From an uncultured Lachnospiraceae bacterium (GTDB lineage Bacteria; Bacillota; Clostridia; Lachnospirales; Lachnospiraceae): a stretch of 43,088 nt of DNA. The notes under the pieces were generated by a model. It saw nothing but the letters and a program-made list of their open reading frames with translations, searched no databases and had not been told where the DNA came from. Positions 8,685-27,425 of the stretch are shown piece after piece. The DNA lies in NCBI GenBank assembly GCA_947626915.1, contig CANQUA010000021.1, forward strand, positions 1 through 43,088, given 5' to 3'. Positions within the stretch are counted from its first letter, which is position 1. Each line of letters begins with the position of its first letter. A program made the position numbers and the translations under genes.

Positions 8685-8787
8685 ATTTGCTCATAAAACT
8701 GGCTGAACGGTTACATTATTTTATTTGGAAATATCACAGGGAAAGATACTGTCGGGCAGGCCGTGTGCGTCTTTTGAAAACACTGCC

Positions 8788-8816
8788 TTGCCCCGATTCG
8801 TCTTTTGTGGTACTAT
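8788..8816 (+). promoter_or_regulatory. candidate promoter of tldD-tldE
   Basis: TTGCCC at 8788-8793, a 17-base spacer and TACTAT at 8811-8816 give a plausible vegetative sigma-A promoter 74 bases before the tldD start codon. Confidence 0.55.
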
Positions 8817-8889
8817 AGAGGACAGAGCGGCCGCCGGCTCTTCCGGCAGGAGGGGACCGGGGCTGATTAAACGAGACAAGGAGGTTTAT

Positions 8890-10284
8890 ATGTCACAGAT
8901 TCCAGTATCTTCCAAAACCATGGAGCTGGTGTTGGCCAGGGCCATGTCTACCGGCGCAGATTACGCCGAGCTTTATCTGGAACATACCAACAGCAAAAAT
9001 ATTTCTCTGCTGGACGGGAAGGTTTACTCCATCGGGGATCAGCTGATCTCCGGGGCCAGCGTCCGCGTCTACAAGGGGCTTCGCAGCGTATTTGCCAGCA
9101 CCTCGGACATGAGCGAGAAAGGGCTTCTGGCCTGCGCGGAGAAAGTGGCGGGAGCTTTGGGAGAGGGCGACGCCCCGATCCACATTCATCTGCGGGAGCG
9201 CATTTTCGGGGATATCCACCCCATCCGCATCGTGCCGGCAACGGTGGCCAATCAGGACAAGATCGACCGGCTGCGGGAAGCGGACGCGGCGGCCAAGGCG
9301 TTTCATGAGAGCATTTCCCAGGTCCGGTGCAGCGACCTGGCCGTGGACCACTGCGTGACGATCGCCAACAGCGACGGTCTTCTGACTTCGGACCGCCAGA
9401 TCCGCAGCCGCATAAGCGTCCAGGCGGTGGCCAGCCGGAACGGAGAGATGCAGACCGGATCCTGCAGCCCGGGACACAGGGTGGGCTTTGAACTGTATGA
9501 TACGGTCGATCCCAGGACCTGCGGGACCGAGGCGGCGCAGCAGGCGGTTACGATGCTGAACGCGGGCTATTGTCCGGCAGGGACGATGCCGGTGGCTATC
9601 GGCAACGGTTTCGGCGGCGTGATCTTCCATGAGGCCTGCGGACATTCGCTGGAGGCGGCTTCCGTGGCCTATAATCAGTCGGAGTTCGCCGGAAAGCTGG
9701 GCCAGCAGGTAGCGGGACCCAAGGTGACGGCCATCGACGACGGCACGATTCCCAACGAATGGGGTTCCATCAACATAGACGACGAGGGCACGCCGGCCCG
9801 GAGGAACGTCCTGATCGAGAACGGCGTCCTGAAATCCTACATGATCGATAAATTTAACGCCCGCCGTATGGGCATGGCGGTGACCGGCAATTCCAGGAAG
9901 CAGAGCTACGCGTATGAGCCGACTTCCCGCATGACCAACACCTACATAGCGGCCGGCCCCGACAGCGAGGAGGATATCATTGCTTCCATCGAGTACGGCC
10001 TGTACGCAAAAAAAATGGGCGGCGGTTCCGTCAATCCTCTGACGGGCGAGTTCAATTTCGGCGTGGCCGAGGCCTATATGATCCGCGGCGGCAAGATCTG
10101 CGAGGCGGTCCGCGGGGCCAGCCTGGTGGGCAAGGGCTCGGAGGTGATCCGTAAGATCGATATGGTAAGTTCAAATCTGGAGCTGGCCGCCGGTATGTGC
10201 GGGGCCTCCAGCGGAAGCATTCCGACGACGGTGGGACAGCCGATGATCCGGGTGTCCAGCATCACGGTCGGCGGCAGGAATTAA
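8890..10284 (+). CDS. tldD: TldD metalloprotease subunit
   Basis: This 464-aa cytosolic protein is the catalytic subunit of the TldD/TldE heterodimeric zinc protease. The HExxxH zinc motif is seen as HEACGH at residues 247-252, followed by SLEAA. The conserved C-terminal region MCGASSGSIPTTVGQPMIRV is also present. ATG 8890 was chosen because AAGGAGG lies just before it; the longer reading frame from 8725 has no ribosome site and adds non-family residues. TldD/E degrades unfolded peptides and processes some ribosomally made peptides such as microcin B17, and affects CcdA/gyrase control in E. coli. No precursor peptide was seen nearby. tldE follows after 25 bases. Confidence 0.95.
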   Translation: MSQIPVSSKTMELVLARAMSTGADYAELYLEHTNSKNISLLDGKVYSIGDQLISGASVRVYKGLRSVFASTSDMSEKGLLACAEKVAGALGEGDAPIHIHLRERIFGDIHPIRIVPATVANQDKIDRLREADAAAKAFHESISQVRCSDLAVDHCVTIANSDGLLTSDRQIRSRISVQAVASRNGEMQTGSCSPGHRVGFELYDTVDPRTCGTEAAQQAVTMLNAGYCPAGTMPVAIGNGFGGVIFHEACGHSLEAASVAYNQSEFAGKLGQQVAGPKVTAIDDGTIPNEWGSINIDDEGTPARRNVLIENGVLKSYMIDKFNARRMGMAVTGNSRKQSYAYEPTSRMTNTYIAAGPDSEEDIIASIEYGLYAKKMGGGSVNPLTGEFNFGVAEAYMIRGGKICEAVRGASLVGKGSEVIRKIDMVSSNLELAAGMCGASSGSIPTTVGQPMIRVSSITVGGRN

Positions 10285-10309
10285 AATAAGGAAGCGAGGG
10301 AGGTCAGCC

Positions 10310-11647
10310 ATGAATTATCAGGAATTCAAGGACAAAGTGTTTGAAAAGGCGCGCGGGTGCGGCCTTACGGAATATGAACTGTATTACGAGCAGTCCCAGT
10401 CCACGGATGTGGATGCGTTTGGGGAAGAGATCCGGGGATTTTCCAGCTCCGACCGCGCCGGGGCCTGTTTCCGGTGCGTTTGCGACGGCCATATCGGATA
10501 TGCTTCCACCAGTCTGTTTACGGAGGAGGAAGCGGAACGTCTTGTGGATGCGACGGTAGAAAACGCCCGCTCCATGGAAAAGGAGGAGCCGGTCCTTTTC
10601 TGCGAGGGAGGACTGGAATACCGGCGGACAGAGCCGAGAGAGGTCCGGGATATACCGACTTCACGGATGGTGGAGCTGGCGAAGAAAAGTCTGGAGCTCT
10701 CCAGAAAAGTGGATGACAGGGTCAGCGACAGTTCCGAGGCGTCCCTGATGGTCAGCCATTCCGTGATCTGCCTGGATAATTCCAACGGCGTCCATCTGCA
10801 GGACACGGTTCATATGGGAGCGGTCGTGGAGCAGACGGTCGTGAAAGAAAACGGAGAGGTCAGCTTCGATGTGGATTTCCGTTTTGGCAATCCGGAAGAG
10901 ATCGATCTGGAAGAAATGGCTCACAAGACGGTGCAGAACGCCCTGGATAAGCTGGGCGCGGGCGTGCCGGACAGCGGCGTTTTCTCGCTGGTACTGGCTC
11001 CGGAGGCTATGACCAGTATGTTGTCCGCGTTTTCTCCGGCTTATTCGGGAGAGAACGCCCAGAATGGCCTGTCATTGATGAAAGGCAAGGAGAATACGAA
11101 GGTGGCGGCGGACTGCGTGACGATCATGGACGACCCGTTCTACGAAGAGAGTTTCTACCGGCCGTCCTTCGACGGCGAGGGGATGCCTTCCCGGTGCAAG
11201 GCGGTGATTGAGAACGGCGTGCTGAAAACGCTGCTGTACGACCTGGCGACCGCGGCCAAGGCGGGCGTGGAGTCTACGGGCAACGCGGCACGCGCGACTT
11301 TCAGTTCTCCGATTTCGGTGCGGCCGACCAATTTTTACATCAAACCCGGCACAATGACGCCGGAGGAGATGTACGCGCGGATCGGCGACGGGCTTTTGAT
11401 CACCGGCGTTCAGGGACTCCATGCGGGGGCCAGCGCCGTTACGGGAGATTTCTCGCTCCAGAGCAGCGGGTTCCTGATCCGCGGCGGCAAAAAGGACCGG
11501 CCGGTGAAATCCTTTACCATCGCCGGGAATTTCTACGAGATGCTGAAAAAGATCGCGGCGGTGGGGAACGATATGAAGTTTAACTGTATGCGCGGCATCG
11601 GCGCTCCCAGTGTGTTGGTAGAGGGGATCACCGTGAGCGGGAAATAA
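10310..11647 (+). CDS. tldE: TldE/PmbA subunit of the TldD/E protease
   Basis: This 445-aa paralogue of TldD lacks the HExxxH motif, as expected for the non-catalytic TldE/PmbA partner that shapes the substrate channel. Family landmarks include SVICLDNSNGV, the central APEAMTSMLSAFSPA segment, and the C-terminal GDFSLQSSGFLIRGG and GIGAPSVLVEGITVSG. GGGAGGT precedes the start. It is co-transcribed with tldD, matching the obligate heterodimer. Confidence 0.93.
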   Translation: MNYQEFKDKVFEKARGCGLTEYELYYEQSQSTDVDAFGEEIRGFSSSDRAGACFRCVCDGHIGYASTSLFTEEEAERLVDATVENARSMEKEEPVLFCEGGLEYRRTEPREVRDIPTSRMVELAKKSLELSRKVDDRVSDSSEASLMVSHSVICLDNSNGVHLQDTVHMGAVVEQTVVKENGEVSFDVDFRFGNPEEIDLEEMAHKTVQNALDKLGAGVPDSGVFSLVLAPEAMTSMLSAFSPAYSGENAQNGLSLMKGKENTKVAADCVTIMDDPFYEESFYRPSFDGEGMPSRCKAVIENGVLKTLLYDLATAAKAGVESTGNAARATFSSPISVRPTNFYIKPGTMTPEEMYARIGDGLLITGVQGLHAGASAVTGDFSLQSSGFLIRGGKKDRPVKSFTIAGNFYEMLKKIAAVGNDMKFNCMRGIGAPSVLVEGITVSGK

Positions 11648-11715: not shown

Positions 11716-14700
11716 ATGGAACAGACTTCCGTAACTCCTCCGTCAAAACATATTTGCCTGGGGATTCTCGCCCATGTGGACGCGGGCAAGACAACCCTGT
11801 CCGAGGGGATCCTTTATCAGACGGGGACGATCCGCAGGCTGGGACGGGTGGACAACCGCGACGCATTCTTAGACACGTACGAGCTGGAACGCGCCAGGGG
11901 CATCACGATCTTTTCGAAACAGGCGGTCTTCGATCTGGGCCAGACGCGGGTGACGCTTCTGGATACGCCGGGGCACGTGGATTTTTCCGCGGAGATGGAG
12001 CGGACGCTGCAGGTATTGGACTGCGCGGTGCTGGTGGTCAGCGGGGCCGACGGCGTACAGGGACATACGGAGACGCTGTGGCGGCTGCTGGCGCATTACC
12101 GGGTTCCCACGTTTCTTTTTGTCAATAAAATGGACCAGAACGGAACGGACTGGAAATGGGTCCTGGCAGACATAAGGAAGCGGCTGGATGAGAACTGCGT
12201 GCCCTTTAACGGGCTGGAGACAAAAAACGGACGGGTCGCGGCGGGACGCGGCCCGGACAGCGGCGCGGCGGCGGGATGGAAAACGGTTTTGGCGGACATG
12301 GCCGCCCGCGGGGAGCAGTCGCTGGAAGAGCTGGCCATGTGCGGGGAAGCCGTGATGGAGGATTATCTGGAAAACGGAGATATCGGTGCTGAGGATATCC
12401 GCCGGATGATCGCCGGGCGGCAGGTGTTTCCGTGTTATTTCGGATCGGCGCTGAAGCTGTGGGGCGTCGGGGAGCTGCTGGCCGGAATCGAAGATTATGG
12501 TCCCGGCGTGACGGCTGCGGGCGTCAGCGGTGTGATGAAGCAGACAGCCCGGACCGGCGGAGCGGGAAATGCGGCTGCGGGCGTCTGCGGCGCGATGAAG
12601 CAGACAGCCCGGACAGGCGGAGCAGGAAATACGGACGCGGGCGGCGCGGCAGGGACCCCGGCCCCGGGCGGAGCGCCCGGCAGCTCAAGCGCGTCTTCCG
12701 CGTCTTTCGGGGCCAGAGTTTTCAAGATCTCCCGGGACGAGCAGGGAAACCGTCTGACCCACATGAAGATCACCGCCGGGACGCTGCGGGTCAGGGACAA
12801 TCTGCCGGTCGGGGAAGAGGAAGAAAAGGTCAATCAGATCCGCATTTATTCCGGCGCGAAATTTGAGACGGTCAATGAGGCCGGACCGGGCGCGGTCTGC
12901 GCGGTGACGGGACCGCTTCTGACCTTTGCGGGACAGAGACTGGGGGCCGAGGCGGAGCGGGAGAACCGCACGCCGGTGCTGGAGCCGGTCCTGACTTACC
13001 AGGTCCTTTTGCCGCCCGGGGCCGACGTACACGGCACGCTGCGGAAGCTTCGGCAGCTGGAGGAAGAGGAACCGATGCTGCAAATCGCCTGGGACGAGGC
13101 CCTGGGAGAGATCCAGGTCCGGGTCATGGGCGCGGTGCAGATCGAGATCCTGAAAAGCCTGATCCGGGAACGGTTCGGCCTCAGTGTGGAATTTGGCTCC
13201 GGGCGCATTGTGTATAAGGAGACGATCACCGCGCCGGTGGAAGGCGTGGGACATTTTGAACCGCTGCGTCATTATGCGGAGGTGCATCTTCTGATGGAAC
13301 CGGGCGCGCCCGGCAGCGGCCTGGTTTTCCGCTCGGTCTGCAGCACGGATTCGCTGGATCTGAACTGGCAGCGGCTGATCCTGACGCACCTGGAAGAAAA
13401 GCAGCATCCGGGCGTTTTGACGGGCGCTCCCATTACGGACATGAAGATCACGCTGATCGCCGGGCGGGCCCATCTGAAGCATACGGAGGGCGGAGATTTC
13501 CGGCAGGCGACCTACCGGGCTGTGCGCCAGGGACTGCGGGAGGCGCTGTCCCGGGGCGAATACCGTCTGCTGGAACCTTATTATCAGTTCCGCCTGGAGA
13601 TACCGCCGGATGCCGCGGGACGGGCTTTGTCGGATCTGGAGCGGATGCACGCAAGCTTTGAGGGGCCGGCGGCGGAGGGAGAGCGGTCGGTCATCACCGG
13701 AACCGCGCCGGTAGCGACAATAAGCAATTATCAGATAGAAGTAGCGGCTTATTCCAAAGGACAGGGAAAGCTTTTCTGCTGGGTGGAAGGGTATAAGCCA
13801 TGTCATAATGAGGAGGAAGCGGCAGCCGCTGCCGGATATGATCCCGATCTGGATCTGGATAATCCCTGCGGCTCCGTTTTCTGCGCCCACGGAGCCGGTT
13901 ATCTGGTGGAGTGGGACCGCGTGAAGCAGTATATGCATCTGGAAAGTCCCGTGGAGCTGGCTGTGCGCCGCCGGGAAACGAGCGGAACCGTGAGAAAGGA
14001 AACGCCGCCTTCGGCGGAAACGGCGGAGACGGCGGCTGTTGCGCCCGCAGATACGAAAAGCATTTCCGGCGGGAAGGGCAGTTCCGCGTGGGGCGCGGAG
14101 GACCGGGAGCTGGAGGCCATTTTTACCCGCACCTACGGCGAGCCGAAGCGCCGCCTGCCGGCCGGGACGGGGACGCGCCGCGTTTCCTACGATTCCCGCC
14201 GCCCTGACGTCCGTGAGCCGAAGGAGCCGGAAGAGGAATATCTCCTGGTGGACGGTTACAATATCATCTACGCCTGGGAGGATTTAAACGAACTGGCCCA
14301 GGTTACCATAGACGGGGCCAGGCACAGGCTGATGGACATGATGTGCAATTATCAGGGTTATACGGGCTGTATCCTGATCTTGGTGTTTGACGCTTATAAA
14401 GTAGAAGGAAATCTGGGCCAGGCCCTCCGCTATCACAATATTCACGTGGTTTATACGAAAGAGGCGGAGACGGCGGATCAGTATATTGAGAAGCTGGCGC
14501 ATCAGATGGGCCGCCGCCACCGGGTGACGGTGGCGACCTCGGACGGACTGGAACAGCTGATCATCCGCGGCGAGGGCTGCAGGCTTTTGTCGGCGCGGGA
14601 TCTCCGGGAAGCGGTGGAAACCGTCAACGAGGAGATTCGCGCGGGGCATCTGCAGAAATTTCCCGTGCGGAACGGAAATTATCTGCTGAACCATGCGGAC

Positions 14701-14781
14701 GGCGAGACCAGGGAGTATCTGGAAGAAATCAGGTTAGGGAAAGAGGGAGAGTATCATGGCGGAAAAACTGACAAAAAGTGA
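11716..14781 (+). CDS. Tet(M)/EF-G-like ribosomal GTPase fused to a YacP/Rae1-like NYN nuclease
   Basis: This 1021-aa protein has two parts. Residues 1-740 follow Tet(M)/Tet(W) ribosomal protection proteins: G1 AHVDAGKT (19-26), DTPGH (83-87), NKMD (137-140), then EF-G-like domains II to V. A Gly/Ala-rich insert of about 65 residues, containing a 20-residue tandem repeat, separates the G domain from domain II. A polar linker (about 745-840) leads to an NYN/PIN-type domain: VDGYN (Asp846), VFDAYK (Asp892), ETADQYIEKLA (Asp921) and VATSDG (Asp943). This closely matches B. subtilis YacP/Rae1 over its whole length. Ribosomal protection factors enter the A site and use GTP hydrolysis to dislodge tetracycline; Rae1 cuts mRNA in the A site. 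The fused role is inferred. Whether it confers drug resistance cannot be judged. GAAAGGG lies about 10 bases before the start. Confidence 0.92.
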   Translation: MEQTSVTPPSKHICLGILAHVDAGKTTLSEGILYQTGTIRRLGRVDNRDAFLDTYELERARGITIFSKQAVFDLGQTRVTLLDTPGHVDFSAEMERTLQVLDCAVLVVSGADGVQGHTETLWRLLAHYRVPTFLFVNKMDQNGTDWKWVLADIRKRLDENCVPFNGLETKNGRVAAGRGPDSGAAAGWKTVLADMAARGEQSLEELAMCGEAVMEDYLENGDIGAEDIRRMIAGRQVFPCYFGSALKLWGVGELLAGIEDYGPGVTAAGVSGVMKQTARTGGAGNAAAGVCGAMKQTARTGGAGNTDAGGAAGTPAPGGAPGSSSASSASFGARVFKISRDEQGNRLTHMKITAGTLRVRDNLPVGEEEEKVNQIRIYSGAKFETVNEAGPGAVCAVTGPLLTFAGQRLGAEAERENRTPVLEPVLTYQVLLPPGADVHGTLRKLRQLEEEEPMLQIAWDEALGEIQVRVMGAVQIEILKSLIRERFGLSVEFGSGRIVYKETITAPVEGVGHFEPLRHYAEVHLLMEPGAPGSGLVFRSVCSTDSLDLNWQRLILTHLEEKQHPGVLTGAPITDMKITLIAGRAHLKHTEGGDFRQATYRAVRQGLREALSRGEYRLLEPYYQFRLEIPPDAAGRALSDLERMHASFEGPAAEGERSVITGTAPVATISNYQIEVAAYSKGQGKLFCWVEGYKPCHNEEEAAAAAGYDPDLDLDNPCGSVFCAHGAGYLVEWDRVKQYMHLESPVELAVRRRETSGTVRKETPPSAETAETAAVAPADTKSISGGKGSSAWGAEDRELEAIFTRTYGEPKRRLPAGTGTRRVSYDSRRPDVREPKEPEEEYLLVDGYNIIYAWEDLNELAQVTIDGARHRLMDMMCNYQGYTGCILILVFDAYKVEGNLGQALRYHNIHVVYTKEAETADQYIEKLAHQMGRRHRVTVATSDGLEQLIIRGEGCRLLSARDLREAVETVNEEIRAGHLQKFPVRNGNYLLNHADGETREYLEEIRLGKEGEYHGGKTDKK
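12512..12631 (+). repeat. 60-bp in-frame tandem duplication inside the GTPase gene
   Basis: Two adjacent 60-base units (12512-12571 and 12572-12631) differ at only a few positions. They encode 20-residue repeats around MKQTARTGGAGN. They fall exactly between the G domain and domain II, where Tet(M) has no such insert. A Gly/Pro/Ser-rich stretch without clear repeats follows to about 12710. Confidence 0.85.
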
Positions 14782-15259
14782 TGTGAAAAAGATCGAAGAG
14801 GAGATCCAGTACCGAAAGCTTGTGGTCCGCCCGGCGGCGATCGAGGCGGTAAAGGAAGCCAGGGCGCATGGGGATCTGAGCGAGAATTTTGAGTATCACG
14901 CGGCAAAAAAGGATAAGAACCAGAACGACAGCCGCATCCGCTATCTGGAAAGAATGTTAAAAACGGCCCAGATCATTTCCGATGAATCCGGGGCAGATGA
15001 GGTCGGCCTCAACAATACGGTGGAGCTTTACATGGAGGATGACGACGAGGTGGAGACCTACCGCCTGGTGACTTCGATCCGCGGCAGTTCCCTGCACGGA
15101 CTGATCAGCACGGAATCTCCCCTTGGAAAAGCGATCCTGGGGAAAAAGGCGGGCGACCGCGTGTATGTGAAGGTCAACGAAACGGCCGGGTACTACGTGG
15201 AGATCCGCTCCATCGACAAGACGACGGACGACAGCCAGGACAAGATCCGCAGCTTCTGA
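14756..15259 (+). CDS. greA: transcription elongation factor GreA
   Basis: This 167-aa protein has an N-terminal coiled-coil finger and a C-terminal FKBP-like domain. The finger tip HGDLSENFEYHAAK carries acidic residues Asp40 and Glu43, which enter the RNA polymerase secondary channel and trigger cleavage of backtracked RNA. The start overlaps the last 26 bases of the GTPase-nuclease gene in another frame, with a GGGAGAG ribosome site inside that gene, so the two are probably translationally coupled. Length and ending are normal for GreA. Confidence 0.95.
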   Translation: MAEKLTKSDVKKIEEEIQYRKLVVRPAAIEAVKEARAHGDLSENFEYHAAKKDKNQNDSRIRYLERMLKTAQIISDESGADEVGLNNTVELYMEDDDEVETYRLVTSIRGSSLHGLISTESPLGKAILGKKAGDRVYVKVNETAGYYVEIRSIDKTTDDSQDKIRSF

Positions 15260-15367: not shown

Positions 15368-15688
15368 TCAGCGGATGTCTTTCAGTTTTCCCTCTTCGTT
15401 TACGTAATAATTGTCGATCCAGGTTTCCTTTGCCATAACGCCTTTTTCATCGAAATAGTACCAACAGCCTTTCAGCTTAAACCAACCGGTTTTTAAATGG
15501 CCTTCTTCGTCCAGATAGTAGGTCTTCTCTCCGTCTACGATCCATCCGGTCAGAGTCTCGCCCTCGTCGTTCACATAGGTCCACGTCTTATCTTCGTGGG
15601 AAGTCCATGTGCCGGCGTAAACGGGTACGGCCGATGAAAACATCATCAGAAAGGAAATCGCGACTGCCATCATTCTCTTACGGTTCAT
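15368..15688 (-). CDS. small secreted cell-wall-binding-repeat protein
   Basis: This 106-aa exported protein has a signal peptide (MNRKRMMAVAISFLMMF, ending near PVYA). The mature part consists almost entirely of three to four CW/choline-binding-type repeats, with the pattern W-x-Y-x2-D/E-x-G-x-x-x-x-GW (WTYVNDEG, YYLDEEGHLKTGW, WYYFDEKGVMAKETW). Such repeats bind choline, glucan or other wall polymers. There is no catalytic domain, so it may be an adaptor or a decoy surface protein. ATG 15688 was chosen over the upstream ATG at 15715 because GGAGG lies 9 bases before it. Confidence 0.8.
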   Translation of the reverse strand: MNRKRMMAVAISFLMMFSSAVPVYAGTWTSHEDKTWTYVNDEGETLTGWIVDGEKTYYLDEEGHLKTGWFKLKGCWYYFDEKGVMAKETWIDNYYVNEEGKLKDIR

Positions 15689-15747
15689 GCCGCACAGCCT
15701 CCGTTCCATAAACAAATTATCTGCAGGAAATATCTTTCAGTGCCTAT

Positions 15748-18490: not shown

Positions 18491-20377
18491 ATGAAAATCA
18501 AAGTTTCCGATTACATTGCAAAACAGCTGGTGGCCCATGGGATCACGCAGGTTTTTACCGTGACCGGCGGCGGGGCCATGCATTTGAACGACGCATTAGG
18601 ACATGAGCCGGGCCTTCATTGTCTTTATCAGCACCATGAGCAGGCGTGCGCCATGGCGGCGGAGAGCTATGCCCGTATCCATAATACCATCGGCGCGCTC
18701 TGCGTGACGACAGGGCCGGGCGGCACGAACGCGATCACCGGCGTGGTGGGCGGCTGGCTGGATTCGATTCCCATGCTGGTTCTGTCCGGACAGGTACGTT
18801 ATGACACGACAGCCCGGTGGTCAGGAGTAGGGATCCGGGCCATGGGCGATCAGGAGTTTGACATTACGAAAGCCATCGGCTGCATGACCAAGTACAGCGA
18901 GATGGTCATCGATCCCAGGCGCATCCGGTATTGTCTGGAAAAGGCGATTTATCTGGCGTATTCCGGCAGACCCGGACCAACCTGGCTGGATATCCCGCTG
19001 GATGTGCAGGGGGCTTACGTGGAAGCGGAGGAGCTGGAGGGCTTCGACGCGGCGGCCTATGAAGCGGAAAACGGCGGCCAGGGACTGCCCGAGCGCGTGG
19101 CGGAGGAGACCGTGCGGGAGATCATCGCGAAGATCCGGGCCGCGAAACGGCCGGTTTTGAACGCCGGGAACGGGATCCGCATTGCCGGGGCCTATCCGGT
19201 ATTTGAGCGGGTCGTGAAGCTTCTGGGCATTCCGGTCGTTACCGGGTGGAACAGCCAGGACTGCATGTGTACGGACGATCCGCTGTACGTGGGCCGCGCC
19301 GGCAACATGGGCGACCGGCCGGGAAATTTTGCGGTACAGAACAGCGACCTGGTATTCTCGGTGGGCAGCCGATTGAGCATCCGCCAGGTAGGTTTTAATT
19401 ATACGACATGGGCCAGAGCGGCCTATGTCATTGTCAATGATATTGACCGGGAGGAACTGAAAAAGCCCAGCGTTCACGCGGATATGCGGGTCCACGCCGA
19501 CGCGAAGGATCTGCTGGAAGCGATGGAGCGCGTGCTTCTGACGGAGGAGACGCCGGTATTCGGCGGCGGAGAGGGCCTGCCAGGGATGAACTGGCTGGAG
19601 ACCTGCCGCATGTGGAAGGCGAAATATCCGGTGGTCCTGCCCAGGCATATGGCGCAGGACGACAGCCGGGAGGCCAATGTCTACGCGCTGGTGCAGGAGC
19701 TGAGCAGCCGCCTGCCGGAGGATCAGATCACGGTGGTGGGAAACGGTTCCGCCTGTGTGGCCGGCGGACATGCTTATATCATAAAGAAGGGACAGCGTTT
19801 TATTACCAATTCGGCCATCGCTTCCATGGGTTACGATCTGCCGGCGGCGATCGGGGCCTGTATGGCGGCTTATGATCCGCGTTTCCGCAAAAGCAGCGAT
19901 CCGGAGGATATCATTCTTCTGACCGGAGACGGCAGTATCCAGATGAACCTGCAGGAGCTGCAGACGATCATCCATCATCAGATGCCGATTAAGATTTTCC
20001 TGATCAATAACGGCGGCTATCATTCCATCCGCCAGAGCCAGAAGAATTTCTTCGCGGGCCCGCTGGTGGGGATCGGCGTGGACAGCGGGGACTTAAGCTT
20101 CCCGGATATGGAAAAGCTGGCGGCCGCCTATGGATATCCTTATGTAAAAGCCCGGCATAACAGCGAGCTGGGCGCGGCCATTGAGAAGACCCTGGCGATG
20201 AAGGGGCCGGTGATCTGTGAGGTCTTTGTGACGATCGATCAGAATTTTGAGCCGAAATCTTCCGGCAAGAAACTGCCGGACGGCACGATGACATCGCCGC
20301 CGCTGGAGGATCTTTCCCCGTTCCTGCCGGAGGAGGAGATGGACGCGATGATGATCATCCCCAGGATAAAGGAGTAG
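18491..20377 (+). CDS. thiamine-pyrophosphate-dependent enzyme (acetolactate-synthase fold)
   Basis: This 628-aa cytosolic enzyme has the three-domain TPP fold. The N-terminal pyrimidine-binding domain carries the catalytic glutamate Glu50 in QHHEQACAMAAE, a central Rossmann-like domain spans about 200-340, and a C-terminal pyrophosphate-binding domain has GDGS (479-482) through Asn507, with Asp480 as metal ligand. Acetolactate synthases are about 560 aa and sit in ilv operons. Here an SDR epimerase follows after 6 bases and glycosyltransferases come next. A branched-sugar or acyl-carbinol reaction on a nucleotide sugar, as done by the YerE-type flavin/TPP enzymes, is a reasonable inference, but the substrate cannot be read. 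The ribosome site (AAAGAGAG) is modest. The extra C-terminal residues (SSGKKLPDGTMTSPPLEDLS) resemble those of other sugar-cluster members. Confidence 0.85.
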   Translation: MKIKVSDYIAKQLVAHGITQVFTVTGGGAMHLNDALGHEPGLHCLYQHHEQACAMAAESYARIHNTIGALCVTTGPGGTNAITGVVGGWLDSIPMLVLSGQVRYDTTARWSGVGIRAMGDQEFDITKAIGCMTKYSEMVIDPRRIRYCLEKAIYLAYSGRPGPTWLDIPLDVQGAYVEAEELEGFDAAAYEAENGGQGLPERVAEETVREIIAKIRAAKRPVLNAGNGIRIAGAYPVFERVVKLLGIPVVTGWNSQDCMCTDDPLYVGRAGNMGDRPGNFAVQNSDLVFSVGSRLSIRQVGFNYTTWARAAYVIVNDIDREELKKPSVHADMRVHADAKDLLEAMERVLLTEETPVFGGGEGLPGMNWLETCRMWKAKYPVVLPRHMAQDDSREANVYALVQELSSRLPEDQITVVGNGSACVAGGHAYIIKKGQRFITNSAIASMGYDLPAAIGACMAAYDPRFRKSSDPEDIILLTGDGSIQMNLQELQTIIHHQMPIKIFLINNGGYHSIRQSQKNFFAGPLVGIGVDSGDLSFPDMEKLAAAYGYPYVKARHNSELGAAIEKTLAMKGPVICEVFVTIDQNFEPKSSGKKLPDGTMTSPPLEDLSPFLPEEEMDAMMIIPRIKE

Positions 20378-20383
20378 GCGGAG

Positions 20384-21421
20384 ATGGATCTGATCGTAAC
20401 GGGAGCGACCGGCTTTCTGGGACGGGCGCTGGTAAAACGGCTGCTGCGGAACGGCCATCGGGTGTGGGCGGTGGCGCGGCCCGGGTCGAAAAACCGGGAG
20501 CTGTTTGAGAAAGAAATGAAGGAGGCACAGGCGGAGCTGGCCGGGAGGCCGGTTTTGCGGCAAGAATCCGGGAAAGGAGTTTCCGCAGGGACGGGAAACG
20601 GCCGTCCGGAACTCCGTGTGCTGGAGCTGGGGATGGACGACTGCGATCATCTTGCGGAAGCGGTCGGGCGGCCCTGCCAGGTGTTTTTTCATCTGGGCTG
20701 GGATGGAGCGGGCAGTGAGAACCGGAAGAAAACCGAGCTTCAATGGAAAAATGTCCCGGATTCCATGAAAGCGCTGCAGGCGGCCAGGGAATTGGGCTGC
20801 GGGCGCTTCCTCTTCAGCGGTTCCCAGGCGGAGTACGGCGTATGCAGTGAGCTGATAACGGAAGAGACGGTCTGCAGGCCGGTATCGGAATATGGGAAGG
20901 CAAAGGCGGAATTCGGACGGCGCGGCGCGGCGCAGGTACGGGACTGGGCGGCCGCGGGCGTTTCGGATATGGATTTCATTCACGCCAGGATCTTCAGCGT
21001 TTATGGGCCGGGAGACCATCCGTGGTCGCTGGTTAATTCCTGTCTGCGGACATTCCGGGACGGCGGAGTCATGGAGCTGGGGGCCTGTACCCAGATGTGG
21101 AATTTCCTGTATATCGACGATCTGGCAGAGGGGCTGCTGGCGCTGGCGTTTAGTGAAAAGCGGGCAGGCGGCATATATAATCTGGCGGGGGACCGGGACG
21201 CCACAATGCCGCTGCGGAATTACGTGGAAACGATGTACCGGCTCTGCGGGGAAAAGGGCAGCATGATTTACGGGAAACTCCCGCCCAACGCCGAGGGACA
21301 GGCGCAGCTGATGCCGGACATTTCAAAGATCAAAAGAGAAACCGGCTGGCGGCCGCAGGTGAGCTTTGAACAGGGAATCGGCCGTATGCTGGCGCTTTCG
21401 GCGGCGGAGCAGTCGTGCTGA
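20384..21421 (+). CDS. NAD(P)-dependent sugar-nucleotide epimerase/dehydratase (extended SDR)
   Basis: This 345-aa extended short-chain dehydrogenase has a nucleotide-binding GATGFLG at residues 7-13, a catalytic Tyr170-x3-Lys174 in EYGKAK, and a preceding FSGSQAEYG strand. The ending (ISKIKRETGWRPQVSFEQGI) is typical of sugar-nucleotide 4-epimerases, dehydratases and 4-reductases. It sits 6 bases after the TPP enzyme, so the two probably modify the same sugar. A Gly/Arg-rich insertion around residues 50-75 is longer than usual for the family. The exact reaction is unknown. Confidence 0.88.
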   Translation: MDLIVTGATGFLGRALVKRLLRNGHRVWAVARPGSKNRELFEKEMKEAQAELAGRPVLRQESGKGVSAGTGNGRPELRVLELGMDDCDHLAEAVGRPCQVFFHLGWDGAGSENRKKTELQWKNVPDSMKALQAARELGCGRFLFSGSQAEYGVCSELITEETVCRPVSEYGKAKAEFGRRGAAQVRDWAAAGVSDMDFIHARIFSVYGPGDHPWSLVNSCLRTFRDGGVMELGACTQMWNFLYIDDLAEGLLALAFSEKRAGGIYNLAGDRDATMPLRNYVETMYRLCGEKGSMIYGKLPPNAEGQAQLMPDISKIKRETGWRPQVSFEQGIGRMLALSAAEQSC

Positions 21422-21425
21422 GGGC

Positions 21426-21454
21426 TTGACAAAATCGGAGAAGCGTTGTATTTA
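21426..21454 (+). promoter_or_regulatory. promoter upstream of the first glycosyltransferase
   Basis: A perfect TTGACA at 21426-21431, a 17-base spacer and TATTTA at 21449-21454 follow directly after the epimerase stop. This should start an independent transcript for the glycosyltransferases. Confidence 0.75.
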
Positions 21455-21512
21455 ATGAAGGATGAACCAGAGAATCTGAAAACAGCCATAACAGATGAAA
21501 AGTGAGGAACAG

Positions 21513-22616
21513 ATGAAGACGGTCAGTGTCGTAGTGCCCTGTTATAATGAAGAAGAGAACGTGAGAGCGATGGCGGACGCTTTGCGTGAGATGTTCGAGG
21601 AGGATCTGCCGAATTACCGTTATGAGATTATTTTTATCGACAATGATTCCAAAGACCGCACGCGGGAGATCATCCGCCAGCTTTGCGCGGAGGACCGGAA
21701 CATCCGCGGCATTTTCAACGCCAAGAATTTCGGCCAGTTCAATTCTCCGTACTACGGGATGCTGCAGAGCAGCGGAGACTGTACGGTCCTGGTGGCGGCG
21801 GATTTTCAGGATCCGGTGGAGATGGTTCCCAAATTCGTGCGGGAATGGGAAAACGGCTATAAGATCGTGATCGGCATCAAGAAGTCCAGCAAAGAAAACC
21901 GGATCATGTACTGGCTCCGGGGCTGCTATTACAAGGTCATCAAGAAATTATCGGATGTGGAGCAGATCGAGCAGTTCACGGGATTCGGACTTTACGACGC
22001 GAAGTTTATTCGGGTGCTGAGAGAGCTGGACGATCCGACGCCTTTTTTACGCGGCATCGTGGCGGAGCTGGGCTTCCGGCGCAAGGAGATTCCTTACGAA
22101 CAGCCCAGACGCAGGGCGGGCAAGACCAGCAACAATTTCTACCGGCTTTATGACGCGGCCATGCTGAGCGTTACCTCTTATACGAAAGCGGGTATCCGCC
22201 TGGCTACGCTGATCGGCGGGCTCAGCTGCATGGTCAGCCTGATTGTAGCGGTGGTTTATCTGGTGATGAAGCTGATCTGGTGGGATCGTTTCCAGGCAGG
22301 CATGACGCCGATGCTTCTCGGGATGCTGTTTCTGGGGTCGGTGCAGATCTTTTTCATCGGCATGATCGGCGAATATGTGCTGTCGATCAATCAGAGGGTG
22401 ATGAAGCGGCCTCTGGTGGTGGAGGAAGAGCGGATCAATTTCCCGAAGAAGAGGGAACGGGACGGCCGCGGCAGAGAAGAGAAGTACGATAAGGACGTCC
22501 GGAACGAGAAAAACGGGAAAAATGACGGGTATAAAAAGTCCCGCCGCCCGGACCGCCCGAATAAAAACGTGAAAGACGTGAAAATGACGGTGGACGATAA
22601 GACGCGGGAAAGCTGA
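21513..22616 (+). CDS. membrane GT2 glycosyltransferase, GtrB/DPM-like, with charged tail
   Basis: This 367-aa protein has a GT-A catalytic domain (VSVVVPCYNEEENV, FIDNDSKDRT, VAADFQDP), then two transmembrane helices at about residues 230-255 and 265-290. That is the layout of polyprenyl-phosphate glycosyltransferases such as GtrB and ArnC, which load a sugar onto undecaprenyl phosphate at the inner leaflet. ATG 21513 was chosen because GTGAGGA lies 5 bases before it; ATG 21495 is a weaker alternative. The last 55 residues are an unusual run of Lys, Arg, Asp and Asn, outside the family domain. Confidence 0.88.
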   Translation: MKTVSVVVPCYNEEENVRAMADALREMFEEDLPNYRYEIIFIDNDSKDRTREIIRQLCAEDRNIRGIFNAKNFGQFNSPYYGMLQSSGDCTVLVAADFQDPVEMVPKFVREWENGYKIVIGIKKSSKENRIMYWLRGCYYKVIKKLSDVEQIEQFTGFGLYDAKFIRVLRELDDPTPFLRGIVAELGFRRKEIPYEQPRRRAGKTSNNFYRLYDAAMLSVTSYTKAGIRLATLIGGLSCMVSLIVAVVYLVMKLIWWDRFQAGMTPMLLGMLFLGSVQIFFIGMIGEYVLSINQRVMKRPLVVEEERINFPKKRERDGRGREEKYDKDVRNEKNGKNDGYKKSRRPDRPNKNVKDVKMTVDDKTRES

Positions 22617-22683
22617 AAAGCGCTTCCGGCCGTTTGAAAACGTCCCCGGCGGGAAGAATACAGGAAAACGGAGTTTAAGGCGC

Positions 22684-24900
22684 ATGAAATTTAAGATCGA
22701 TGTGGTCCGGATCCGGGAAAATTCCATCCAGCTCAACGGCTGGGTCGTCGGAAAAACTCCCGAATCCAGGCCCGCTTTTCTGGTGCTGGATCAGAATCGC
22801 CGGAAGATGAAGATGAAATATGTCTCTACCAGGAGAGACGATGTAAGCCAGATTTATTATAAGAAGATCTATGACAGGGATTTTGGCTTCGACATCCAGT
22901 TCCCCTATGAGCGGGGCAGGGATTACTGGCTGCTGATCCGCTGCGACGGCCGTGTCCGGCGGATCAAATTCAATGAAAACCTGATCGCGAAGCGTTCCAG
23001 CGTAGCTTATAAAAGGCTTGAGAAGCTTCGGGATCTGATGAATATGGAGACCGTTCATGTGGCCGTGGAGTTCGGAAAGAAACACGGCCTGAAAGCGTTG
23101 TTTTTGAAATCCAGACATAAGCTGCAGGGCATTGACAACGATTATGAGTACGCGGAATGGTACGATCTGACGAAACCGTCCCGGGAGGAGCTGGACGCGC
23201 AGAGAGCGGAGAAATGGGAGAACGGTCCGCTTTTTTCCATCGTGATGCCGGTCTATCTGGCGCCCGCGGATTTTTTGAAGGTGATGCTGGATTCGATTCT
23301 GGCCCAGACTTATCCCGGCTGGGAGCTCTGCATCGCGGACGGAAGTCCCGCGGGGAAAACTTCTGAAGCCCTGGTGCGGCCCTACATGGAAAAGGATTCC
23401 CGCGTTCATTATCAGGCGCTGGGGGAAAACGGCGGCATCTCCGGGAACACCAACGCGGCCATCGCCATGGCGGGCGGGGATTATATCGTGCTGGCGGACC
23501 AGGACGACGCCATGCCGGAGCATGCGCTTTACGAGTGCGCGAAGATGATCCGGGAGCACCCGGACTGCGACGTGCTTTATTCCGACGAGGATAAGATGGA
23601 CATGGACGGCGGCGCGCTGTTTGATCCGCATTTTAAGCCGGATTTCAATCCGGATCTGCTGCGCAGCGTCAATTACATCTGTCATCAGTTTGTGGTTCGG
23701 AGAGATCTGCTGGAGCGGGTCGGCGGGTTCCGGAAAGAGTTCGACGGGGCGCAGGACTACGACCTGATCCTGCGCTGTACGGAGCGGGCGAAGAAAATCT
23801 GCCATATCCCGAAGGTGCTGTACCACTGGCGCTGCCACCAGGGTTCCACGGCCAGCAATCCCCAGAGCAAACTGTACGCGTTTGAGGCCGGCTCCCGGGC
23901 GGTCATGGAGCATTACCGGCGGCTGGGTATCCCGGCTCTGAAGGTGGAGAAAGGCGTGGACTACGGCATTTACCATACCACGTTTGAGATTGTGGGCAAA
24001 CCGCTGGTTTCCGTGATCATCCCGAATAAGGACCATCATAAGGACCTGGATCTCTGCGTGCGGTCGATCCTGACGAAATGCACCTATAAGAATCTGGAGT
24101 TCGTCGTGGTGGAGAACAACAGCCGGGAAGCGGAGACGTTCGCTTATTATGAAAAGATACAGAAAGAGTTCCCCCAGGTCCGGGTGGTCCGCTGGGAGAG
24201 GGAGTTCAATTATTCCGCGATCAATAATTTCGGGGTCCGTTATGCCAAAGGGGAATACCTGCTGTTTTTAAATAACGACACGGAACCCATCGCGCCTGAT
24301 TTCATCGAAGAAATGCTGGGGTTCTGCCAGCGGGAGGATGTGGGAGCCGTGGGAGCCCGGCTGCTCTATGAAGACGACACGATCCAGCATGCCGGCGTCG
24401 TGGTCGGCTTCGGCGGCATCGCGGGCCATACGTTCATCGGGCTCCACGAGGCGGAAAACAGTTATTTCCACCGGGCCATGTGCGCCCAGGATTACAGCGC
24501 CGTCACGGCGGCCTGCATGATGAGCAAGAAGTCCGTTTTTGAGGCGGCGGGAGGTTTCAGCGAGGAGCTGGCCGTGGCGTTCAACGATATCGATTACTGC
24601 ATGAAGGTGCGGGCGCAGGACAAACTGGTCGTCTACGCGCCCTACGCGGTCCTCCATCATTATGAATCCAAATCCCGGGGGCTGGAGGATACGCCGGAGA
24701 AGGTGGACCGTTTCAACCGCGAGGTAGCCAGATTTGCGAAGAAATGGCCGGATATCCTGCGGGACGGCGACCCTTACTACAATCCGAACCTGACGCTGCG
24801 CAAATCCAATTTTGCGCTCCGGGATCTGCTGAAAGAAAAGATCGGCGAACCCTATCCGCTGGATCCGGCGATCCGTAAACATATGGAAGAGGAGGAATAA
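22684..24900 (+). CDS. two-domain GT2 glycosyltransferase
   Basis: This 738-aa protein has an N-terminal beta-rich domain of about 150 residues and then two GT-A glycosyltransferase domains. The first begins FSIVMPVYLAPADFL with the acidic motif LADQDDAMPE; the second begins VSVIIPNKDHHKDL with LLFLNNDTEP. Both carry metal/sugar-nucleotide-binding acidic motifs, so both may be active and add two different residues. There is no transmembrane segment, so it likely acts at the cytosolic membrane face. Tandem GT2 enzymes of this build occur in rhamnan and other surface-polymer clusters. It sits 4 bases from the next glycosyltransferase. Confidence 0.9.
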   Translation: MKFKIDVVRIRENSIQLNGWVVGKTPESRPAFLVLDQNRRKMKMKYVSTRRDDVSQIYYKKIYDRDFGFDIQFPYERGRDYWLLIRCDGRVRRIKFNENLIAKRSSVAYKRLEKLRDLMNMETVHVAVEFGKKHGLKALFLKSRHKLQGIDNDYEYAEWYDLTKPSREELDAQRAEKWENGPLFSIVMPVYLAPADFLKVMLDSILAQTYPGWELCIADGSPAGKTSEALVRPYMEKDSRVHYQALGENGGISGNTNAAIAMAGGDYIVLADQDDAMPEHALYECAKMIREHPDCDVLYSDEDKMDMDGGALFDPHFKPDFNPDLLRSVNYICHQFVVRRDLLERVGGFRKEFDGAQDYDLILRCTERAKKICHIPKVLYHWRCHQGSTASNPQSKLYAFEAGSRAVMEHYRRLGIPALKVEKGVDYGIYHTTFEIVGKPLVSVIIPNKDHHKDLDLCVRSILTKCTYKNLEFVVVENNSREAETFAYYEKIQKEFPQVRVVRWEREFNYSAINNFGVRYAKGEYLLFLNNDTEPIAPDFIEEMLGFCQREDVGAVGARLLYEDDTIQHAGVVVGFGGIAGHTFIGLHEAENSYFHRAMCAQDYSAVTAACMMSKKSVFEAAGGFSEELAVAFNDIDYCMKVRAQDKLVVYAPYAVLHHYESKSRGLEDTPEKVDRFNREVARFAKKWPDILRDGDPYYNPNLTLRKSNFALRDLLKEKIGEPYPLDPAIRKHMEEEE

Positions 24901-24904
24901 GCCC

Positions 24905-25897
24905 ATGTCCGGGAAACAGGCGACGGTGATCATTCCGAATTATAACGGGCTCCAGTTTCTGGGCGTGTGCGTGGATGCGCTGGAGAGACAGACCTGCCGG
25001 GATTTTGAGATCCTGGTGGTGGACAACGGTTCCACGGACGGGAGCGTGGAATGGCTGAAAGCCCAGGGGATCCCGGCGATCTTTCTGGATCGCAACACCG
25101 GCTTTTCCGGGGCGGTCAACGCGGGCATCCGGGCGGTTTCGACGCCGTATGTGCTGCTTTTGAACAACGATACCGAGGCCGCGCCGGAGTTTGTGGAGGA
25201 ACTGCTGGCCTCGATCCGCCGTTCAAAGCGGATTTTTGCGGTTACCGCCAAGATGATCCAGATGTACCACAGGGAGCTGATGGACGACGCCGGGGATATG
25301 TTCTGCCTCATGGGCTGGGCCTATCAGCGGGGCGTGGGGCGCTCCAGCCGGGGCTACAACCGGGAGCGGGAGGTGTTTTCCGCCTGCGCCGGAGCGGCGA
25401 TCTACCGGCGTGAGGCGTTCGATGAGATCGGCCTTTTCGATGAGAAGCATTTTGCCTATCTGGAGGATATGGACGTCAGTTACCGGGCCAAAATCTACGG
25501 TTATCACATCCGCTACTGTCCCGGCGCGGTGGTTTACCATGTGGGCAGCGGCACCAGCGGCTCCAAGTACAACGCGTTCAAGGTCCGTCTGGCCGCCCGC
25601 AACAGTCTCTACGTGGACTATAAAAATATGCCCTGGCCCCAGCTTCTGGCAAACGCGCTGCCGATCGCGGCGGGCGTCGCGGTGAAATACGGATTTTTTA
25701 AGAAAATGGGCTACGAAAAAGAATTTCTGGCGGGCGTGAAGGAAGGGCTGTCCACCCTGTCTTCCTGCAGGCGGGTTGCGTACCGTCGGGAGCATCTGGG
25801 CAATTATTTGTCCATCCAGTGGGAGCTGACCGCGGGGGCGTTCCTGTATGTGTACGAATTTTTCAGGAGACAGTCAGGAAAAATTCTCAAAAATTAA
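24905..25897 (+). CDS. GT2 glycosyltransferase (rhamnosyltransferase-like)
   Basis: This 330-aa GT-A enzyme carries ATVIIPNYNGLQFLG, VVDNGSTDGS, a Dx(D)-type LLLNNDTEAAPEF, and SACAGAAIYRREAFDEIGLFDE. The AYLEDMDVSYRAKIYGY segment supplies the ED base and is characteristic of WcaA/RfbF-like transferases. The C-terminal part is amphipathic and probably membrane-associated. It ends the glycosyltransferase run; the next gene has its own promoter. Confidence 0.9.
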   Translation: MSGKQATVIIPNYNGLQFLGVCVDALERQTCRDFEILVVDNGSTDGSVEWLKAQGIPAIFLDRNTGFSGAVNAGIRAVSTPYVLLLNNDTEAAPEFVEELLASIRRSKRIFAVTAKMIQMYHRELMDDAGDMFCLMGWAYQRGVGRSSRGYNREREVFSACAGAAIYRREAFDEIGLFDEKHFAYLEDMDVSYRAKIYGYHIRYCPGAVVYHVGSGTSGSKYNAFKVRLAARNSLYVDYKNMPWPQLLANALPIAAGVAVKYGFFKKMGYEKEFLAGVKEGLSTLSSCRRVAYRREHLGNYLSIQWELTAGAFLYVYEFFRRQSGKILKN

Positions 25898-25917
25898 GAG
25901 AATTTTAATACCCCCTG

Positions 25918-25936
25918 CATGAAATTCATGTATAAT
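25918..25936 (+). promoter_or_regulatory. -10 element with adjoining palindromic operator candidate
   Basis: A perfect TATAAT at 25931-25936 lies 40 bases before the sugar-phosphate transferase start. Immediately upstream, CATGAA-A-TTCATG (25918-25930) is a perfect 13-base palindrome filling the spacer, while the -35 is poor. A bound factor there could repress or activate. The regulator is unknown. Confidence 0.55.
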
Positions 25937-25975
25937 GTATGGGACATGGCTCACATTATTTTTGGGTGAACGCTT

Positions 25976-27394
25976 ATGATAAAGAATAATCAGCAGATGC
26001 TGAACCGGCTGCATTTATTTTTGGACATACTGGTTCTGGTGGCTTCCTATGCGCTGGCATGGTGCTGCCTTGTCCTGAGAAATACGTTTGTGACGCCGGA
26101 GAGAGGTCTGCTTCCGCCTCAGTATTATTTTGCCGTACTGGTTGTCATTATTCCGCTGTATCTGATTTTATATACGTCCTTTCATTTGTATGAACCGAAG
26201 CGGATACAATCCAGACGATATGAATTTTTTAATATTTTCCGGTCCAATCTGTTAGGTCTTCTGGTCATGACGACCGTGCTGTTTTTGTTCCGGAAGAATC
26301 CATTCATCCAGGAGTTTTCTTCGCGGATGGTATTTTATTTCTTTGTCATCAATATTGTGGCAGAGACGGTGGAGCGCGCCGCGATCCGTGCGGTTCTGCG
26401 GACCCTGCGGTCCAGGGGCTATAACCAGAAGCATATTCTTCTGGTGGGACTGAGCCGGACGGCGGAGGGGTTCATCGACCGTGTGAAGACCAATCCGGAG
26501 TGGGGGTATCAGATCCTGGGGATCCTGGATGATACTGCGTCCCCGGGCAATGAATATAAGGGCGTGAAGGTGTTGGGGACCATTGACGAGCTGGAATCGA
26601 TCCTGGAGCTCAATACCCTGGACGAGATCGCGATCACGCTGGCCATCGGCGAGTACGGAAAACTGGAAGCGATCGTGGCCTCCTGCGAAAAATCGGGAGT
26701 CCACACCAAGTTTATCCCGGATTACAATAATCTGATCCCGACCAGACCCTATACGGAGGACCTGCAGGGGCTTCCGGTGATCAATATCCGCCATGTGCCG
26801 CTGACGCTGACTTACAATAAGCTGCTGAAACGGGCGGTGGATATCGTGGGTTCCCTGGTTGCGATCGTTTTGTTTTCTCCGGTCATGCTTCTGACCGCTG
26901 CCGCGATCAAGCTGACGTCGCCGGGACCGCTGATTTACAAGCAGGAGAGGGTCGGGCTCCATAACCAGCCCTTTCAGATGTATAAGTTCCGTTCTATGGA
27001 GGTACAGCCGCCGTCAGAGGAGAGATCCAGATGGACGACGCCGCATGATCCCCGCGTGACGCCGGTGGGCCGGGTGATCCGCAAGACCAGCATCGACGAG
27101 ATGCCGCAGTTTTTCAATGTGCTGAAAGGCGAGATGAGCCTGGTAGGCCCCAGGCCGGAGCGGCCGCTTTTTGTGGAACGGTTCAAGGAAGAGATACCCC
27201 GGTACATGATCAAGCATCAGGTGCGGCCGGGAATGACCGGCTGGGCCCAGATCAACGGCTACCGGGGCGACACTTCGATCACCAAGCGGATCGAGCACGA
27301 TCTCTATTATATCGAAAACTGGACGTTCGGACTGGATATTAAGATCCTGTTCCTGACGATCTTTAAAGGCTTTATCAATAAAAACGCATATTAA
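25976..27394 (+). CDS. polyprenyl-phosphate sugar-1-phosphate transferase (initiating enzyme)
   Basis: This 472-aa membrane protein has four N-terminal transmembrane helices (about residues 10-125), then a Rossmann-like CoA-binding-type domain (HILLVGLSRTAEGFI, GYQILGILDD). The C-terminal bacterial sugar transferase domain starts at about residue 285 (KRAVDIVGSLVAIVLFSPVM, YKQERVG, KFRSM, LPQFFNVLKGEMSLVGPRPE-like, RPGMTGWAQINGYRG). It is the WbaP/CpsE/EpsE type that starts glycan assembly by moving a hexose-1-phosphate to undecaprenyl phosphate. It is the expected entry point for the glycosyltransferases upstream and for the LCP enzyme downstream. Full length, no defects seen. Confidence 0.93.
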   Translation: MIKNNQQMLNRLHLFLDILVLVASYALAWCCLVLRNTFVTPERGLLPPQYYFAVLVVIIPLYLILYTSFHLYEPKRIQSRRYEFFNIFRSNLLGLLVMTTVLFLFRKNPFIQEFSSRMVFYFFVINIVAETVERAAIRAVLRTLRSRGYNQKHILLVGLSRTAEGFIDRVKTNPEWGYQILGILDDTASPGNEYKGVKVLGTIDELESILELNTLDEIAITLAIGEYGKLEAIVASCEKSGVHTKFIPDYNNLIPTRPYTEDLQGLPVINIRHVPLTLTYNKLLKRAVDIVGSLVAIVLFSPVMLLTAAAIKLTSPGPLIYKQERVGLHNQPFQMYKFRSMEVQPPSEERSRWTTPHDPRVTPVGRVIRKTSIDEMPQFFNVLKGEMSLVGPRPERPLFVERFKEEIPRYMIKHQVRPGMTGWAQINGYRGDTSITKRIEHDLYYIENWTFGLDIKILFLTIFKGFINKNAY

Positions 27395-27425
27395 AAGACT
27401 GAACGACAAGGATGAGGTTACGGAC

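Follow-up and report, generated by a model that had tools for sequence, protein, structure and literature searches.

The fused gene and its domains

In this study, we analysed a gene in a 43,088-nt stretch of DNA (contig CANQUA010000021.1, assembly GCA_947626915.1) from an uncultured Lachnospiraceae bacterium; this whole stretch is called the window below. The gene, at positions 11716 to 14781, encodes a translational GTPase joined to a nuclease of the Rae1 (YacP) type, and the results showed that this fusion is real. As the initial annotation had claimed, both parts lie in one chain, each complete and conserved in a single open frame (Table 1). The G-domain motifs and five EF-G-like domains were all found, which places the first part in the EF-G-type superfamily of translational GTPases; only domain III scored slightly low (EFG_III, 25.3 against a cut-off of 27). 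The nuclease part matched NYN_YacP (PF05991) with 168-173 bits against a gathering score of 24.6, and both the Rae1 fold and its conserved Asp residues were found in it. Full-length fold searches had only EF-G-type, EF-2 and RF3 chains among the matches listed, and the nuclease part was therefore modelled and searched separately. It shares its fold, its conserved Asp residues and 43% identity over 135 residues with Rae1/YacP of Bacillus subtilis (PDB 5mq8 and 5mq9). The B. subtilis protein is a separate small protein, whereas the nuclease of the fusion is tied to a GTPase and encoded elsewhere in the genome. An insert between the G domain and domain 2 (12505-12705), with a repeated MKQTARTGGAGN unit and predicted to be disordered, is missing in most of 29 aligned homologues.

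Table 1. Position of the fused gene, its parts and the adjoining gene in the window (aa, amino acids; pLDDT, predicted local distance difference test)
Feature	Position	Strand	Evidence
Fused gene, 1021 aa and stop	11716..14781	+	Single open frame; Pfam domains; AlphaFold mean pLDDT 79.2
G domain, aa 11-261 (AHVDAGKT, DTPGH, NKMD)	11746..12498	+	GTP_EFTU, E 1.6e-50; motif columns kept
Ala/Gly-rich insert, about aa 264-330, internal repeat	12505..12705	+	Gap columns in alignment; pLDDT <50 at 266-327
Domains 2 and 3, aa 332-494	12709..13197	+	EF-G_D2; EFG_III slightly below cut-off
Domain IV, aa 496-610, tip loops GHFEPLRHYAEV and KHTEGGDF	13201..13545	+	EFG_IV; loop comparison with tetracycline-protection-type and EF-G rows
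Domain V, aa 617-699	13564..13812	+	EFG_C
C-terminal extension of GTPase, aa 700-741, ending SVFCAHGAGYLV..YMH	13813..13938	+	Comparison with unfused homologues
Flexible linker, aa 742-840, about 100 aa	13939..14235	+	pLDDT <50 at 765-796 and 808-835
Conserved linker motif ELEAIFTRTYGEPKR, aa 798-812	14107..14151	+	Pattern in relatives; predicted helix
NYN_YacP (Rae1) nuclease domain, aa 843-1006; D846, D892, D921, D943	14242..14733	+	PF05991; fold; residues
greA (neighbour), 26-nt overlap with fused gene	14756..15259	+	GreA models

The set of fused entries comprised 131, of which 128 were distinct, and some of them were one genome reached via two collections. D846 and D892 were Asp in 130 of 130 fused entries, and D921 and D943 in 129, the remaining entry having a gap in a partial domain match. 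Thus the three acidic residues that had been pointed out at the start (846, 921 and 943) are conserved, and D892 joins them; all four were also kept in the 29 entries without an in-frame GTPase. Among 128 long fused entries, the GTPase motifs G1, G2, G3 and G4 were found in 114, 124, 127 and 127, respectively. The ratio of nonsynonymous to synonymous substitution rates (dN/dS) was about 0.08 in the GTPase, 0.2 in the linker and 0.13 in the nuclease of L096 and L100, the sole pair with unsaturated dS. In six other pairs dS was above 1 or undefined, and the linker had a higher dN than either domain. These results indicate that both modules are complete, conserved and under purifying selection.

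We rejected an assembly join or a remnant, decaying domain as the source of the fusion, which is hardly conceivable on these data. Homologues do lie in pieces in five genomes of the family (G033, G078, G081, G115 and G119), but a frame of at least 800 aa was found in 124 of 150 family genomes, long frames also carry the fusion in other families and classes, and the conserved active sites and the purifying selection contradict decay.

The GTPase and the tetracycline-protection proteins

Proteins of this kind have already been published. Atkinson 2015 (PMC4342817), in the part that concerns them, reported that "Tet" proteins in ten species of Clostridiales carry an NYN domain resembling YacP, and suggested an RNase-based resistance. 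The gene in the window fits these Tet-NYN fusions, an EF-G-like GTPase with a YacP-like NYN domain in Clostridiales, and with the same two domains it apparently belongs to the same protein family. No experimental test of the fusion and no later work on it was found in the open-licence literature. Whereas the fusions were there filed under Tet with the idea of resistance, our comparisons point to a separate GTPase subfamily, which is near-core in one family and replaces rae1; what is sharpened in this study is the definition of the family, its history and the hypothesis of its function.

The GTPase had initially been described as Tet(M)-like. The EF-G-like motifs and domains behind that description were borne out, whereas membership in the Tet(M) family was not. 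The best NCBIfam match of the protein was the tetracycline-protection model, and its score with the equivalog model tet_protect was 419.9 bits against a cut-off of 775, so the cut-off was not reached. A GTPase tree was built by a quick method without bootstrap, with a long-branch warning, EF-G rows as the outgroup and two very long fused rows (L050 and L211) excluded. In this tree, 35 fused GTPases formed one clade (Shimodaira-Hasegawa-like approximate likelihood ratio test, SH-aLRT, 99), 21 unfused GTPases stood beside it (76), and the fused and unfused GTPases together formed a clade (99). The 11 rows of ribosomal protection protein (RPP) type, which were picked by score from the sampled genomes and include no reference Tet sequence, formed the adjoining clade (97), and the window protein lay outside it.

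The domain-IV tip loops differed as well. Of the 128 long fused entries, 124 had the pattern KHTxxxDF, as did all 21 long unfused entries, the latter including one broken fusion (L062). SPxSTP, the Tet(M)-type tip loop, occurred in none of the 128 fused or 21 unfused entries and in 5 of the 11 RPP-type rows, so some RPP-type rows also lack it; HTxPLDF was present in 4 of these 11 rows and VDSSE in all 4 EF-G rows. No pattern was common to the subfamily, the RPP-type rows and EF-G. The domain-IV loop of the window protein reads AHLKHTEGGDF in place of YSPVST of Tet(M), which we take to be loop III of that domain. Tet(M)/Tet(O) and Otr(A) share the EF-G-like domains and form the sister clade, but they differ in the tip loops and in the C-terminal extension. 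The unfused GTPases of the subfamily, of about 650 aa, have the same extension and the same KHTxxxDF loop as the fused ones, and when complete they stop shortly after YMH/MHC of the extension, without linker and nuclease. EF-G itself is encoded by a separate EF-G-type gene on C73 of the same genome, which groups with the EF-G rows, and its tip loop SYHxVDSSEMAF is not found in the fusion GTPase. By sequence, the GTPase represents a subfamily of its own, which is the sister group of the tetracycline-protection proteins, and it is no member of the Tet(M) family.

Resistance to antibiotics, by a tetracycline-protection protein that acquired an RNase as suggested in Atkinson 2015, is therefore an unlikely function, although the sister position of the RPP-type rows and the best NCBIfam match, far below its cut-off as it is, speak for it. 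The closest NYN matches on plasmids lie in two records, one of which is labelled tetracycline-resistance, as are several plasmid records with unfused relatives. However, plasmid NYN matches at 57-60% identity are restricted to these two records (252 kb and 518 kb), the gene is near-core in its family, and the subfamily has KHTxxxDF instead of the SPxSTP loop; Tet tip loops dislodge the drug according to the portion of PMC4342817 that treats them.

An unfused relative of 639 aa on a Ligilactobacillus salivarius plasmid (L256, 1498-3417, + strand) also bears a tetracycline-resistance label. It has the C-terminal extension of the subfamily and, in place of KHTxxxDF, a variant tip loop, and because of these two features the label looks doubtful; similar matches were found on other L. 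salivarius plasmids. Surveys of resistance genes call for caution here: some relatives bear tetracycline-resistance labels in public records, and the window protein scores below the cut-off of that family.

Distribution of the fusion and the fate of free-standing rae1

The samples comprised 150 genomes of the family, including that of the window, 243 of the class and 249 of the phylum. In the family, the YacP domain was found in 137 of 150 genomes: in a frame of at least 800 aa in 124, in pieces in the 5 named above, and free-standing in 8 (G005, G017, G022, G043, G048, G054, G082 and G137). The frame lengths in this count read through stops; 16 matched rows have internal stops, and in the three of them that were retrieved (G023, G079 and G136) the stop-bounded frame still carries GTPase and nuclease. 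The fusion is thus near-core in the family of the window. In the class, YacP was above cut-off in 161 of 243 genomes, with a single such copy each, and the frames were at least 700 aa in 83, intermediate in 6 (contig ends, stops or frame changes) and below 220 aa, which was taken as free-standing, in 72. In the phylum, where the search covered the GTPase, the subfamily was found at E 1e-150 in 18 of 249 genomes, in frames of 857-1028 aa in 16 and of 651 and 657 aa in the other two. Among 80 named loci, the best of at least 585 matches, 76 had GTPase and nuclease in a single frame, and many were labelled Lachnospiraceae.

Some copies were unusual. The copy at L062 (5516-8201, - strand, genome G033) lies in two overlapping frames of 712 and 214 aa, which may reflect a frameshift, a sequencing error or a split gene. 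The fused copy at L050 (6631-9423, + strand, genome G149) is highly divergent, with a branch length of 4.68, and is perhaps altering or losing its function. At L061 (8950-9729, + strand), a free-standing YacP protein has a long, Lys/Ser-rich repeated tail.

The fusion replaces free-standing rae1. When the genome of the window and the other fused genomes whose rlmB locus was examined were searched in six frames with the YacP model, a second copy above cut-off was not found; G030 has a second YacP fragment at a contig edge, which is doubtful. A survey for the loss of free-standing yacP had been proposed at the start, and free-standing yacP was indeed absent where the fusion occurs; the genome of the window has no second yacP. 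Among the 29 entries without an in-frame GTPase, at least three of which (L062, L090 and L140) represent fragments of a fused gene or are truncated by the end of a contig, rlmB was at position -1 in 20 and sigH at +1 in 18. Free-standing relatives of Rae1 thus lie between rlmB and sigH, whereas the fused nuclease does not. In 13 of 13 fused genomes whose rlmB locus was examined, no NYN gene followed rlmB. In these 13, rlmB was preceded by mrnC in 12, cysS was present in 9, and sigH came next in 8, including 3 (L229, L230 and L231) with 0.2-0.6 kb in between; in the other 5, among them the genome of the window, rlmB was followed by another gene without NYN similarity. The identities of rlmB, sigH and cysS were confirmed; the gene called mrnC is an RNase III-domain gene without an NCBIfam match at 1e-20, which we take to be mrnC.

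Because the rlmB locus lacks an NYN gene and no second copy was found, the nuclease domain appears to have left the rlmB operon rather than to have been duplicated. A single fusion event would be the simplest history, because the 35 fused GTPases in the tree form one clade.

The place of the free-standing gene beside rlmB and the presumed mrnC could also suggest a role in the maturation of ribosomes or stable RNA, in which a BipA-like assembly GTPase would carry a nuclease for rRNA or tRNA. The products of rlmB and mrnC have been described as acting on 23S rRNA in B. subtilis, and an early proposal, as cited in the relevant part of PMC4342817, had NYN domains mature rRNA or tRNA. However, B. 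subtilis Rae1 has been described as acting on translated mRNA, and the fused gene lay outside the rlmB locus in the 13 genomes examined; we regard maturation as improbable.

Proposed role on the stalled ribosome and the surrounding genes

The linker was examined in 124 of the 131 fused entries. It carries the motif ELxxIFxRTYG, and a strict pattern (ELxxIFxxTY-like) was found in 100 of 124 relatives against 0 in 50 shuffles; this pattern was composed after inspecting the sequences, which are related, and the shuffles control composition only. Many of the 24 linkers missing the strict pattern resemble degenerate versions of it, and a few (e.g. L122) do not. Among 59 sequences, E798, I802 and T806 were each at least 90% conserved, and AlphaFold predicted a helix at 796-807 with low confidence (pLDDT about 58). 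The linkers differ widely in sequence as well as in length; counted from the W/Y in the C-terminal extension, they span 75-171 aa in the 100 relatives with the motif. The conserved helix between two disordered spacers is a candidate docking element.

Translational GTPases of EF-G shape bind the factor site of the ribosome and put domain IV into the A site. Studies have described Rae1 of B. subtilis as an A-site endonuclease that cleaves mRNA in a translation-dependent way and is proposed to enter stalled ribosomes; S1025 and bmrCD are named among its targets. The tip loops of Tet and EF-G in domain IV are covered in the portion of PMC4342817 on these loops, and further background was taken from parts of PMC10632193, PMC11780869, PMC6613710, PMC10100781 and PMC8266666. 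Besides its single YacP, the genome of the window encodes SmpB and a separate EF-G. In this study, we believe that the fused protein probably cuts messages on stalled ribosomes. That it acts as a GTP-dependent factor which delivers a Rae1-type mRNA endonuclease to them is a proposal for which we consider the case evenly balanced. More tentatively, we speculated that it is a near-core translational GTPase of gut Clostridia whose cycle on the stalled ribosome gates the tethered Rae1, with the linker motif docking or timing it.

The following account of how the protein binds the ribosome, in which order the steps occur, where the message is cut and what the linker motif does is our inference. By homology, the GTPase in its GTP form would bind the ribosomal factor site and push domain IV into the A site, recognising ribosomes with a persistently empty A site, where the tip loops GHFEPLRHYAEV and KHTEGGDF may probe the decoding centre. 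GTP would then be hydrolysed and domain IV withdrawn. The nuclease on its flexible linker, with the linker motif as a possible docking element, would move into the A site once domain IV has left it, or into the mRNA entry path next to it, and cut the message, and the truncated mRNA would be left for rescue by transfer-messenger RNA (tmRNA) and SmpB. Domain IV and Rae1 should both occupy the A site by homology, and therefore a hand-over through the flexible linker would be needed.

Several points weigh against this gated delivery or against the history given above. As long as domain IV sits in the A site, the nuclease would be kept out of it. The nuclease and the subfamily GTPase were both lacking in 13 of 150 family genomes, and the function is thus dispensable. 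In the tree of the NYN domains, the fused domains did not form one group (3 changes), the domain being short and several branches long. Unfused GTPase and nuclease did not co-occur significantly in the class (10 genomes with both, 5 with GTPase only, 62 with nuclease only and 77 with neither; Fisher p = 0.17), and they are apart in many genomes, so they do not always need each other. In the family, the numbers were 6, 0, 2 and 13 (p = 0.0005), the genomes being non-independent; G054, whose GTPase falls among the RPP-type rows of the tree, was counted here as nuclease only. Co-occurrence was suggestive in the family but not at the class level, and we did not retain it as proof of a partnership.

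The main rival is a tether without gating. The GTPase would have a job of its own, for example to reset paused ribosomes or translocate them, and being joined to it would only keep Rae1 near ribosomes or fix its dose, while the GTP cycle would not gate the cutting. In relatives, each of the two parts also exists as a gene of its own; 5 of 15 class genomes with an unfused GTPase have no YacP at all, and the linker is long, variable and disordered. However, free-standing rae1 was not found beside the fusion, except for the doubtful fragment in G030, and the conserved linker motif exceeds the needs of a passive tether. We consider tethering only to be a possible but rather doubtful explanation.

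If the cycle of the GTPase does gate the nuclease, a single protein would detect the stall, empty the A site and cleave the mRNA. According to the part of a review dealing with nucleases that act on mRNA in stalled ribosomes (PMC12320835), not all of these enzymes have been listed so far. Most sampled members of a gut family have GTPase and mRNA nuclease in one chain, so a GTPase-coupled cut is directly testable, and the fusion suggests that a partner is worth seeking where Rae1 is free-standing.

We also considered other origins and roles. PADLOC gave no match, and a role in anti-phage defence was rejected. An origin from phages was rejected as well: YacP matches were found in 13 phage records, all below 60% identity, 8 of them of Listeria or Staphylococcus and 4 faecal. 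Two of the faecal records (MT835514.1 and MT835563.1, unannotated) matched the nuclease at 57-60% identity and may be prophage flanks or bacterial contamination.

No conserved operon was found around the fused gene among 130 fused loci. In the window, the last 26 nt of the fused gene (14756-14781) are also the beginning of greA, and translational coupling is possible; a greA-like gene lay at most three genes downstream in 14 of the 130 loci, and we do not regard greA as a component of the machine. The protease pair TldD and PmbA is encoded directly upstream of the fused gene (8725-11647). Next to greA, a gene on the - strand (15368-15715) encodes a 115-aa protein with choline-binding cell-wall repeats, and proteins resembling it are encoded two genes downstream in 4 fused loci. 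Further downstream, 18491-29810 is a likely surface-glycan cluster with a thiamine pyrophosphate (TPP) enzyme, an epimerase, three glycosyltransferases, a sugar transferase and a LytR-CpsA-Psr protein.

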